Below, piece after piece: positions 9,875 through 14,379 of a stretch of 64,000 bases of DNA. The first letter of the stretch is position 1. Every line of letters starts with the position of its first letter. The stretch comes from Hericium rajendrae (Eukaryota > Basidiomycota > Agaricomycetes > Russulales > Hericiaceae). The position numbers and the translations under genes were made by a program. The notes beneath the pieces were generated by a model, which did not search any database, had not been told where the DNA came from, and saw only the letters and a program-made list of their open reading frames with translations. Where the stretch lies: positions 1,178,001-1,242,000 of the forward strand of contig CM065882.1 in NCBI GenBank assembly GCA_033439255.1. The letters run 5' to 3'.

Positions 9875-10229
9875 CATCAGGAACCTTGACAACTTTCTGA
9901 TTGACCTGCGGCCATCTGATAGCATCTGTCAGAACTCATGTGAGTGAAATCAGATAAATCAGCCAGCATCAGACACTATCAGACACTATCAGTTTGTTGG
10001 ACCTCAAGCTGAGCTCAGAAATTTCTCAGAATGCTCTCAGTTTTGTGTAAATTTTGGATATCAGAAATTATGCTATAGTGAATAGTTACAGGCGTTTGCA
10101 TAAGAAACTGCAGGTCGGGCCTCGTGCTGTTTTGTTTGTAGTAGCCAAACATTACCATAAATGGCTGTAAGGACAGCCCCGATCAACTGAGGCACCGCGA
10201 GAGCAGCCCATTGTACGAGCGACGCACTC

Positions 10230-11309
10230 ATGGCTCCTCCCGTCAAGCAGCAGCTCAGAGAGCGTATCGTGCACTGGCGTCTTGAAGACAGCCTTCCCAT
10301 CTCAGAAATTGCAGCCCTGGCTGACTGCTCCGAGCGTACAGTCTACCAGATCCTCCATGACTTCAGAGAATTCGGTCAATTAAGCAACCCACATGCTCAA
10401 GCTTGAGGTCGACCCCGTCTTCTCGATTTTCACCATGTTGCGTACATTCGAGGCCTCATTGATGCGAGTCTGGACATCTACCTTGACAAGATCCAGGACA
10501 AGATCATTGAAACACTCGACATCGACGTCTCGTTGGCCACCATATCTCGAGCACTTCATCATCTTTTCCTATCACACAAGGCTATCTCAAAGGCGGCCCT
10601 TGAGCGCAATGAGCTCCTCCGTGTGACGTGGATAGCACGCTATGGAGACTTGCCAATGGGTGACATCTTCTGGATAGATGAGTCAAGTGTTGACAATCGG
10701 ACAAACCAGCGCATGCAGGGTTGGGCGGAGCTGGGCAGAGCATGTGTTCGCCGCGACACATTTGTGCGTGGCAAGCGCTATTCAATATTGCCCGCACTCT
10801 CCATTCGTGGAATCATCGCGCTCGATATCGTTGAAGGTAGCGTAAACAAAGAGCGGTTCATTCGATTCTTAAACGAGTCTCTTGTACGTCTACTTCACGT
10901 TCTTTGTTGTCTTCTTGATATATTCATTCTTTTGCATTGCGCAGGCCCCTCATCTCAATCCTTATGGCCATGGCAGTATTGTTATTATGGACAACTGCAT
11001 GATACATCACGATGAGGACATACGACACATAATAGAAGACGAATGCGGTATGTCTCCTTATTTGAACTCCATACTTTGTTCATTGATCTTTTGACATTCG
11101 TAACAGGAGCCCAGCTTGTCTATCTCCCACCATATTCTCCTGACATGAATTCTATTGAGCAAGCCTTCAGTAGCATCAAGGCGTGGCTTCGCCGCCATGA
11201 AGCTGAGGCAATGGAACCAGATATCAGGCCATGGCTAATTCACCAAGCAATAAATGCTGTTAGTTCAGATGATGTGGCAGGTTGGATAGAGAATTGCGGT
11301 TATACATAA
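10230..11309 (+). pseudogene. IS630/Tc1-mariner family (DDE_3) transposase with one nonsense codon
   Basis: Start ATG at 10230 (MAPPVKQQLRERIVHW). Exons are 10230-10883, 10945-11047 and 11107-11309, with GT-AG introns of 61 and 59 nt, giving 320 codons including the stop. The N-terminal helix-turn-helix reads SEIAALADCSERTVYQILHD. Catalytic residues by family knowledge are Asp in FWIDESSVD, Asp in IVIMDNCMIHH and Glu in DMNSIEQAF, with 35 residues between the last two by my count. PPYSPD precedes the final Glu. The only defect I find is TGA at 10404-10406 (codon 59), where fungal relatives have Arg before GRPR; a CGA-to-TGA change would explain it, the expected decay of a methylated CpG. The frame is otherwise open through all exons, so loss of function looks recent. 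Confidence 0.88.
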
Positions 11310-11563
11310 TGGCTGTTGTGAATTATTTTATCCTTCGCAGAAAAATTAAGCATGAGTTTATTTTAGAGCAACCGTAAGGAGTGTGTGAGGAAATATTGTG
11401 AACGTAGATAAGGTAGACGTTGGACTGAAATGAGTGAAATATGAGTTATTGAAGGTATGACCATGTTCAAGTATTAAGTAGATAAGGTATGAATATCAGC
11501 AATAGCGACTCAGCGATCAGAAGCACGTCAAGCGTGCGCAACAGACTTTTCATGCCTTCGACT

Positions 11564-13808
11564 CTACCGCTTTGCAAATTTCTGGAGCTTCCAGAGCTGT
11601 CCTTCGATACCACCAATCACCTCAGCTAGACGTGAGATCTGAATGTCGGGGATGATATCCGGTGTGAACTCCAGCTCAGAAAGTGCCTGCTCGTAAGGTA
11701 AAAAGTCAATTCCAATCTCATCACGAAAAGCTAAGAGGAAACTGTGAAGATGATCTAAAGACATGGATGCAGGCATGGTGGGTGAAGAACCTCTAGAACG
11801 TGAGGATCGTCGACGAGAGAACTCCGGACTGCGTGAATGACGATGGAGCGAGCGCGGACTCGCTGAGCGATGGCGCGAAGATCTGGGTGTGGTAAAGTAA
11901 CGACGTGCTGATCGTGGGCTGATCGGATGACGATGGGGAGTTCGAGGGCTGATTGAGCGATAGCGTGATGAACCCGAGCTCGAAGCCTGTGAAATAGAGT
12001 TTGCGAGATGGGAGGCTGCAAGTGTCGCAAGCACTGGTATGAGTCCACCTGCCAGATCGGCTTGACTCGCAACAGGCTCCTGTTGAGGTCGTGGCCCCGT
12101 CCGACCCCACGGCTTGACTACGACGAGACTGCCATCTTGCGATCCATCGAAGAGATTTTGATTTGGGGGCATATCAATTGTTGCTTTATGAGCCACCTGG
12201 ATATGCATGCATCAGAGCCCACACAATATCGAAAAGCAGTCTACATACCAAAGCTGCAGCCCAGGCCTTCAGACGCCGAGCATTTAGCCCAACGTGCGAA
12301 TCACCATTCTTGTAGCAATAGCCTTGTTCGCCGTGTTCGCCAAGGTGCTCCGTACACTTGTGCGCATTCTTGATCTTCATGATGAGGACACCATGTAGCT
12401 GATCTTGCTGCGAGAAGCCATCAAGTTGAGGAACCTAGCATATTTAAGATAAGCACAATATAGCTCTATTGAACATAAATTCACGTACTTGGGTTCCATG
12501 AACGAGTTCAACTCGGTCATTTTGGTCAAGTGACTAAAGGCAAGACCTCATTCAGCATGTACCAAGGCAGGCAAGCGCGCTGCAGCACTGCACTGCATGC
12601 GTGCATGCTGGCTGCAACAAAAGGCCATACCTGAATGTTTATGCAAAATCGCTCGAGTACATTGGCATTGAGCTCAACCGTAACACTGGCACTTCGCTTC
12701 TTCAAAATCAGTTCTAGCGAGGTCGCCCATTCTTGATTTGTGTCGATCATGCCCGATGACATTTTACTGAGATAAATATTTGTAATTAGTAAAGAGTATG
12801 AAACAGAAGATGAGACGTACTTTACTCCAGTCCACCACAAGCGGAAGCTTGGCCCAGAATGGACACCAGCTTCGTACCGCTCACCGAGGCCATGAGCATC
12901 GAGAATGGCCTTGACGAACTGGATTCGAGTTGCGCCGAACAGCCGAACAGCTACAATCTTTGACACCGGCACTACCTTATTAACATATTTTGCTGAGCCA
13001 TGTTGGACAATCTTCTCGGTCGTTGTCTTGAGCAAGATAACAGTGACCTGGTGGTCTGTCATTAACTTCATCAGCGGTGTTTACAAAGCGAGAAGGTTAA
13101 AATTACCTTCTTTGTGTGCAACACCATGACCTGGTGCCTCTTCCGCAGCAGCAGATGCTACATGTTGTATCGCTGTTCGAGGCTGGTGTGGTCTTTGCAC
13201 GTCATGCTGATGCACTGCAGGTTGCATGGCCGCATTTGCCGGAACAGCGGCCAGATGCTGCTGCTGATTGCGTGTACGAGCGAGCTCTTGAACCAAAGCT
13301 CGCACACATAGATCATCTGGGCGAAAAGCTAACTAAATTTCCTCTCAGCAACGGTCAAAGAGAGCAAAATGAGAACACAGCTTACATCACCTTCGGTGAC
13401 AGCACGAAGAGCAACAAGGCGCGTCCAGTGCTCACACTGAGTCACGAGGATCTCCTCTTCGCTGAAATAGTGCTGAACGGGATCTACACTCCCGTCTAGA
13501 CCAGAAAGGCTTAGAATACGAATAACAAAGGAAAAAAAAACGTACCAATCCAGGCAGGCCTTCGCAGCCAACCGTCAGATGCAGGGCGAACCTGACGGTC
13601 CGCATGAGCACCTGCGACGGGCACATACGGGATGAACTGCCGATCAACAGGTGGATGATGTACATCTGGGGCATCAGTAGAACTACGAGAAGGCTGATCC
13701 GTAGACATCATAGGGATGCTCTGAAAATAGGGAGAGTGAGAATGAGATACCACTACAGACATGAAAACACAAGACTTTATATACCTTGCGATTGAAGCCT
13801 TCGGCCAT
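11564..13808 (-). CDS. Nine-exon accessory protein of the Tc1/mariner element, RS-rich, function unknown
   Basis: My exon model (minus strand) is 13808-13785, 13720-13546, 13495-13386, 13332-13107, 13055-12821, 12766-12631, 12533-12489, 12434-12249 and 12196-11564. All junctions are GT-AG, phases are compatible, and there is no internal stop: 589 codons plus TAG. It starts MAEGFNRK. The middle (about residues 230-340) contains DHQVTVILLKTTTEKIVQHG and VRLFGATRIQFVKAILDAHG. Residues about 315-380 contain QEWATSLELILKKRS, a Cys/His-containing stretch (CTEHLGEHGEQGYCY) and LNARRLKAWAAAL. Then come PPNQNLFDG, an Arg/Ser-repeat region (about 452-517, SPR and RSASPRS steps) and a C-terminal LTPDII-like segment (ELEFTPDIIPDIQISRLAEV). 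Uncharacterised mushroom proteins with LN.R.LK.WA...PPN..FDG and TPDII are familiar to me; no function is known to me. RS domains suggest a nuclear or RNA-linked role, which is inference. It converges on the transposase and lies wholly inside the inverted repeats. Confidence 0.75.
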
Positions 13809-14379
13809 TGTGGGTAGGAATGGAAACGAGTGTCCTACATATTTTGGACCATTTCATCCATGCCGAACAGTAGTGAGGACTACGATGCAAAGCGACGGCA
13901 ACAGCAGCACAGTGTTCAGCTCAATTTGTGTCAAGCCGAAAAATGACTTTACTTACCGAAAATCTTACTTGAAAGTAAGCCATGCGACTTGCATGCTTGA
14001 ACAGAAGATATGTAGACTATGAACACGAGCCTTAGAGAAGAAACAAGCTTGAGAACGACGGTCTTGATAGTGAGGACAGAGAGGCTCGAAGCTCGAGGCC
14101 CAAGGCCGACGCGCGTACCGCCAGGCACCGCAGTTCCTGATATCCATTTTTAGAAATGTTTGGTCGCTACAAACAAAAATGCGCGAGGGTGACCTGCAGT
14201 TTCTTATGCAAATGCCTGTAGAGATGAATAACTACTATGGCTAACAATAGACATTAACTCTTAAATATATAAGCTGAATCAGATATGATCATTTGAAAAG
14301 TAATCTCAGACAGATTAGATCCTACAGTAGGGTTAGAAACTGTCAGACTCATCAGAAAATTGTCAACGTTCCTGATGTC

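Follow-up and report, generated by a model that had tools for sequence, protein, structure and literature searches.

The elements of the Tc1/mariner type are textbook one-gene transposons that are widely used as genetic tools, and the transposase of PIF/Harbinger elements belongs to a different family. In mushrooms, the excerpted source on TIR_1 of Pleurotus ostreatus describes an element of 1.6 kb with 214-nt terminal inverted repeats (TIRs), which encodes a transposase (PMC4905642). Tc1/mariner elements with several open reading frames (ORFs) are known in ciliates as Tec and TBE, with the extra protein of Tec being a site-specific recombinase, according to the accessible part of that account (PMC7325037). 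PIF/Harbinger elements, as portrayed in the available portion of the report, contain two independent and conserved genes within one TIR pair and occur alongside miniature inverted-repeat transposable elements (MITEs); their ORF1 is Myb-like, the target duplication comprises 3 bp, and both proteins are needed (PMC2836001). Here we describe an element in a 64,000-nucleotide stretch of the genome of Hericium rajendrae (assembly GCA_033439255.1, contig CM065882.1, positions 1,178,001 to 1,242,000, hereafter the window), which carries a DDE_3 transposase and, convergent to it, a second intron-rich gene, termed partner, whose relatives accompany an entire branch of transposases in this genome. The element spans window positions 10089-14218, with 4,130 bp located between two TA dinucleotides, and displays the following features:

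10087..10088, no strand: left TA target-site duplication (flank inspection)
10089..10153, plus strand: left TIR (repeat comparison)
10230..10883, plus strand: transposase exon 1, with the helix-turn-helix (HTH), the first part of DDE_3 and an in-frame TGA at 10404-10406 (gene model; Pfam on intact relative)
10945..11047, plus strand: transposase exon 2 (gene model)
11107..11309, plus strand: transposase exon 3, up to the stop codon (gene model)
11564..12196, minus strand: partner exon 8, with a PPN..FDG motif, a low-complexity linker rich in arginine and serine (RS) and a C-terminal helical SAM-like region (gene model; profile search)
12249..12434, minus strand: partner exon 7, with the core motif C..H..EHG...CY...H.GLN.R.LK.WA (gene model, alignment)
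12489..12533, minus strand: partner exon 6 (gene model)
12631..12766, minus strand: partner exon 5 (gene model)
12821..13055, minus strand: partner exon 4, with the middle domain (F.KA...H....F.LWWTG; gene model, alignment)
13107..13332, minus strand: partner exon 3, a variable Q/A/P-rich linker (gene model, alignment)
13386..13495, minus strand: partner exon 2 (gene model)
13546..13711, minus strand: partner exon 1 of an eight-exon model, starting with MMSTDQ (gene model; same length in the relative L018)
13777..13784, minus strand: TATATAAA, putative core promoter for the partner (ATG preceded by TATAAA)
14154..14218, minus strand: right TIR (repeat comparison)
14219..14220, no strand: right TA target-site duplication (flank inspection)

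The recurrence of this pairing was investigated in the assembly of the window itself, a single fungal genome of 46.8 Mb in 19 contigs. Transposase searches with E values up to 0.01, in which exon matches were merged by hand, identified at least 26 distinct loci, a lower bound since such searches score only the best candidates. A relative of the partner is present at 23 of these 26 loci and is convergent to the transposase in every case. The first-pass annotation had tied one inference, that the scattered LN.R.LK.WA proteins of mushrooms may be transposon-derived, to the recurrence of the pair, which in this genome is established. The loci are:

Two-gene loci from the partner search, with gene models: the window copy, L018, L019, C6, C14a and C14b
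C4a: two-gene locus split by insertions
C4b: two-gene locus of which the last partner exon alone is left
C2c: two-gene locus, a fragment at a contig end
C3: two-gene locus
Distant two-gene loci: C18/L058, C10/L059, C6/L060, C2/L061, C1/L062, C6/L063, C2/L064, C12/L066 and C14/L065
C7 and two on C17: two-gene loci known by their positions only
C14/L070: two-gene locus with an interrupted transposase
C1:4687152-4688622 and C17:251496: transposase-only loci between TIRs (solo copies), the latter containing a nested insertion
C1:2672568: transposase fragment of 83 residues, no partner seen

Several of these loci bear secondary rearrangements. Foldback insertions with arms of 842 bp (99%; C4:2352194-2354084) and 711 bp (95%; L070:3249-5343) interrupt the partner of C4a and the transposase of L070, respectively. 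A pair of degenerate two-gene copies that face in opposite directions on one contig and are alike in their number of stops (C17:50471-52261 and C17:175047-176837) possibly reflects an inverted segmental duplication.

The distribution of loci bears on the proposal that the partner is passenger cargo, a host gene that was captured once and either kept as helpful to the host or simply riding along. In its introns the partner resembles a host gene, and transposon cargo is common, but partner searches of the genome gave no stand-alone full-length relative, only a single fragment without transposase (C17:318736-319107) and a weak, stop-ridden match away from any transposase that was not counted (C14:325238, E 0.010). 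Its orientation is moreover fixed down to about 30% transposase identity, and it was not seen with three classical Tc1 copies described below. We thus consider cargo very unlikely, and of the two roles offered in the first-pass annotation, cargo or a mobilisation or regulatory factor, it is the latter, a cofactor or regulator, that appears most likely.

The nine-exon partner gene proposed initially indeed comprises exactly 589 codons with GT-AG at all junctions and no stop, but its first exon (13785-13808), which is not conserved between copies, is doubtful. Because this exon ends on the TATATAAA motif, because TATAAA precedes the downstream ATG in each of the six copies compared, and because the ATG of L018 matching the nine-exon start reads into a TAA at that place, we prefer a safer model of eight exons and 578 codons. 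In L019 and C6, AAAG/GTGAGT follows just after the TATATAAA motif, and the partner gene may have an additional short exon or an intron at its 5' end. Eight-exon models were obtained for six copies (window, L018, L019, C6, C14a and C14b), whose introns correspond in position within conserved stretches, in contrast to those of the variable linker, and exon lengths of 166, 110, 235, 136, 45 and 186 are common to the window copy and L018. The stop codons of transposase and partner face each other at a distance of about 63-254 bp in the six copies.

The comparison of nonsynonymous (dN) and synonymous (dS) divergence between element copies, which had been suggested by the first-pass annotation, was most informative for L019 and C6, both of which are open. 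For this pair, we find a partner dN of 0.064, a dS of 0.495 and a dN/dS of 0.13 (95% 0.09-0.17) over 551 codons, with a corresponding ratio of 0.056 (0.035-0.089) for the transposase, whereas divergence in the seven introns of the partner amounts to 0.35 per site. The ratios for the window copy and L018 (0.17, 0.08-0.26) and for L019 and C14a (0.14, 0.06-0.19) are rough due to the saturation of dS, which applies to values above about 2, and the statement on selection rests on L019 and C6. From the low dN/dS combined with the diverged introns it follows that the partner was preserved while the copies diverged, and that it is under purifying selection between element copies. The persistence of an open partner frame once the transposase had acquired its nonsense codon, as remarked earlier, says little, as it concerns a single copy.

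The initial case consisted of one locus without transcript data, and the partner could have been a chance neighbour or a false gene model drawn from intergenic sequence. The eight-exon models in six copies, the 23 loci and the difference in divergence between exons and introns refute this explanation, to which we assign a negligible probability.

The history of gain and loss was addressed with a transposase tree of 22 rows, which includes 17 of the 23 partner-bearing loci and takes classical Tc1 elements from this assembly as its root. A branch with 100/100 support separates the 17 partner-bearing rows and both solo rows from the remaining ones. Within it, the solo rows group with L018 (99/98) and then with the window copy (100/99), in agreement with an earlier tree, and the distribution of the partner requires no more than two state changes, a single loss in addition to a change at the base; with L058 and L072 on long branches, the deep order is unsure. 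Both solo copies have long TIRs (182 bp in C1 and 155 bp in C17, both 88%). In the first-pass annotation, repeats enclosing a transposase alone were to mark the pairing as an accidental capture. Such an arrangement is found at these two loci, yet since they nest inside the two-gene clade they reflect partner loss and not capture. A scan for DDE_3 revealed 12 loci outside the 26, and in the three that were inspected, the classical Tc1 copies L072, L073 and L074, no partner was detected (best match E 0.13). L073 and L074 are closely related to each other; L072 has a length of 1.6 kb and TIRs of 213 bp, L073 measures 1.3 kb and has TIRs of 38 bp, and no TIRs were seen in the retrieved piece of L074.

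As the distant partners are too diverged for BLAST, their homology was investigated by profile comparison, using partner models of L058-L063, L065 and L066 that were derived from spliced alignments and open frames, with approximate junctions. The close group matches the C3 partner at 97.7% over 307 columns, and the core set matches group A (L059-L061) at 95.9%, group C (L058, L066) at 96.1%, group B (L062, L063) at 88.2%, or 95.3% with a broader query, and the L065 partner at 89.9%, whereas 40 decoys, obtained by shuffling each of four sequences 10 times, did not exceed 2.9%. For groups A and C, the alignment with the core set stays colinear across about 307 columns, proceeding from the middle domain to the C/H-rich ..L..WA core and the helical end, while for group B it spans the core, to which the broader query adds the middle domain.

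Based on the pairing at 23 of 26 loci, the single nested loss represented by the solo copies, the classical copies without partner and the dN/dS of 0.13, the partner is, as far as sequence comparison can tell, an old protein that is ancestral to the whole two-gene branch. Chance pairing and accidental capture were rejected in view of the recurrence at 23 loci, the tree and the selection.

The boundaries of the element are well defined. The inverted repeats and TA duplications around 10089-14218 noted in the first-pass annotation are seen, with the outer 30 nt of the TIRs (10087-10116 and 14191-14220) being 97% complementary and the pairing extending inward to 10173 and 14135 with 78% over 54 nt, so that the TIRs are recognisable for about 85 nt. 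The left TIR contains two blocks that are kept among copies, CAG...TTTGCATA...CTGCAG and TTTGTTTGTAG..CCAAA, and the blocks CAG...TTGCATA...CTGCAG and TTTG...CCAAA are common to the TIRs of aligned coding elements, the C1 solo copy and MITEs. TA is found at both ends in all seven coding elements and all four MITEs examined. When the window flanks are joined with a single TA, they match uninterrupted copies of a repeat found elsewhere in the genome, with at least 17 such copies among the best 40 scored candidates, covering 189-192 of 192 query bases at 94-97% identity, and the junction of the empty site is gapless with a single TA in both copies that were checked base by base. The element has therefore transposed and inserted as one unit. 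The host repeat is MITE-like with a length of about 371 bp, has 27-bp inverted ends at window positions 9875-9901 and 14351-14377 and exists in many empty copies; at L073, one of these adjoins a frame that by eye resembles a retrotransposon integrase. At the right ends of L019, C6, C14a and C14b, the inner TIR block differs from the block on the transposase side in a similar way, being TTCTGACCAAAGC-GTGACA-like on the partner side and TAGTAGCCAAATA-GTCACA-like on the transposase side, hinting at functionally unequal ends.

The transposase of the window is described by a three-exon model (10230-11309) with one in-frame TGA at codon 59 and a Pfam match to DDE_3 of 69.4 bits, above the cut-off, which bears out the earlier reading of a DDE_3 transposase with a single nonsense codon. 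Its relative in L018 is open throughout and matches DDE_3 with an E value of 4e-32 (111.5 bits, cut-off 28.6) and, in its N-terminal HTH, HTH_32 with 38 bits (cut-off 33.7). In the IS630-Tc1-mariner group, the catalytic spacing ranges over DD(34-41)D/E. The residues D234 and E270 of L018, which are invariant between L018 and L019 and have 35 residues between them, fit this range, and we infer that they are catalytic. Judged by its DDE_3 transposase, TA duplication, TIRs, HTH and catalytic spacing, the element is assigned to the IS630-Tc1-mariner group. Its transposase is not the sole gene between the TIRs, and the presence of the partner sets it apart from a classical single-gene Tc1/mariner element.

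The search for domains in the partner gave few leads. Whole partner proteins, including that of C3, found no match in Pfam, and a Pfam search with seven C-terminal pieces detected no SAM domain but two sub-threshold, chance-like matches (SpnB_Rossmann and MerR_2). In sequence searches of the PDB, best E values were 0.88 for whole partners and 1.6 for the middle domain; a PB1/ubiquitin-like fold, which had been a guess for this domain, has no tool support and was discarded. A profile of 11 partner C-termini places SAM proteins first in the PDB, with a Caskin-1/EphA6 chain at E 0.0021 and the EphB2 SAM at 0.02, followed by ANKS1A, MAP3K20 and aveugle at 0.28-1.1, the matched stretches being what we take to be SAM domains; MspI (0.91) and a hydrogenase (1.7) were also matched. 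A SAM domain, which is characterised by a five-helix fold, is thus weakly suggested for the C-terminus. The C..H..EHG...CY core resembles by eye a zinc site and possibly is one. The RS-rich region highlighted in the first-pass annotation is present in the window partner, which contains 18 RS/SR pairs, but five other full-length copies contain 5-10, and the region is a poorly conserved linker; its interpretation as a feature of serine/arginine-rich splicing factors was rejected as the stretch is not conserved. A seeded search of viral, bacterial and archaeal contig collections found no relatives, which says nothing about mushrooms. Within Pfam, the PDB and one fungal genome, the partner appears to match no described family.

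With respect to its function, we lean towards the partner being an accessory factor that the element itself encodes and that works on the TIRs in trans, together with the transposase. The unit of this branch would consist of a DDE transposase and a convergent partner within one TIR pair, the latter probably with its own TATA-type promoter. The partner would most likely multimerise via its SAM-like C-terminal region, while its conserved C/H-rich and possibly zinc-binding core may contact DNA or the transposase. In this way it might help to assemble or position the transpososome or set its level, by analogy with ORF1 of PIF/Harbinger as presented in the excerpt of that source (PMC2836001), and full elements would provide the proteins that mobilise MITEs and copies with a transposase only. 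The ends of the coding elements recur on four MITEs of 332-351 bp, two with termini of the window type and two of the L018 type; one of the MITEs lies at C3:544465-544815. Since the transposase has its own HTH, a role of the partner in assembly, localisation, level or silencing is left more open.

A number of observations count against an ancestral accessory factor of this architecture. The rate of evolution of the partner is about 1.8 times that of the transposase (dN 0.064 compared to 0.035), and no DNA-binding domain was recognised by Pfam in whole partner proteins. The solo copies C1 and C17 have TA at both ends and transposases differing by 0.5%, which suggests that they moved recently, and the partner would therefore be dispensable in cis. 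As for the SAM-like region, the E value of 0.0021 for Caskin-1/EphA6 sums two SAM domains of one chain with single values of 2.4 and 55, the six core C-termini alone find SLA1 as their best PDB match (E 0.34), and Rad51, presumably with its N-terminal helix-hairpin-helix domain, scores 0.038 among the eight matches of the 11-sequence profile. Models predicted from single sequences are poor, with predicted local distance difference test (pLDDT) scores of 64.6 for the helical C-terminus and 34.0 for the middle domain, and a fold search with the C-terminal model gave no match below E 8. Finally, profile comparisons with single sequences are weak (core set to L061 4.6%, to L062 19.3%), with the L061 partner being linked via L059/L060 at 98.6%, and groups A and B match at only 0.5%, or 0.8% with L065 added.

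The two near-identical solo copies could also be viewed as escapees from a partner that acts as negative regulator or titrator of the transposase and thereby limits copy number, which indeed looks low. Element-level selection for self-restraint tends to be weak, yet the whole branch has retained the partner, and only two solo copies were found, leaving this explanation unlikely. A somewhat better case can be made for a partner that counters host silencing rather than taking part in transposition, as VANC reportedly does for the VANDAL elements of Arabidopsis. Host silencing is likely: C4b (L044, C4:3540344-3543444) differs from C6 by 33 transposase substitutions, of which 30 are C>T or G>A and 20 are located at CpG, a pattern of decay expected of DNA methylation in silenced copies or of a process resembling repeat-induced point mutation. 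A SAM-like, linker-rich protein would suit chromatin work, and the fixed pairing and selection fit equally well, but Pfam recognised no chromatin-type domain, and an anti-silencing factor need not track one transposase clade, yet none accompanies the three classical Tc1 copies examined. We regard an anti-silencing role as possible but rather improbable.

If the partner is an accessory factor, the gain and retention of a second gene by this branch would illustrate that Tc1/mariner chemistry can come to depend on, or be regulated by, a second element protein. A protein family for which no annotation was found obtains a testable function, transposon proteins may be listed as host genes in catalogues of mushroom genes, and the near-identical one-gene derivatives C1 and C17 are natural material for studies of partner function. 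A wider proposal, which we put forward tentatively and hold to be slightly more doubtful than not, is that an old IS630-Tc1-mariner branch in mushrooms is obligately two-component, with a partner of a new family (middle domain, C/H-rich LN.R.LK.WA core and SAM-like end) needed for efficient transposition, and that many of the unexplained lineage-specific Agaricomycetes proteins in which this core occurs belong to transposons or descend from transposon components by domestication.

Among the matches listed in the open-access literature, with Repbase outside this scope, none describes a two-gene Tc1/mariner element in fungi. Pending other mushroom genomes, a two-gene IS630-Tc1-mariner branch in fungi with an undescribed partner family would thus be new, the kind with several ORFs already being known in ciliates. 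Sleeping Beauty is a single-gene element; its SB100X transposase (5cr4) is matched by a profile of two relatives of the window transposase with an E value of 1.3e-4, the sole PDB match at 0.01 or better. TIR_1 of P. ostreatus, as far as its excerpted description extends, is alike in its DDE_3 transposase, TIRs and TA duplication and is resembled by L072 in size and TIR length, whereas the second gene of the element described here more than doubles its length (PMC4905642). Compared to the recombinase of the ciliate Tec elements, as covered in the accessible text, the partner is intron-rich, matches no Pfam family and shows no sign of being a recombinase (PMC7325037). The available description of PIF/Harbinger differs with respect to the DDE_3 transposase, the TA duplication and the partner without Pfam match, but both systems share the organization of two genes within one TIR pair and the presence of MITEs (PMC2836001).

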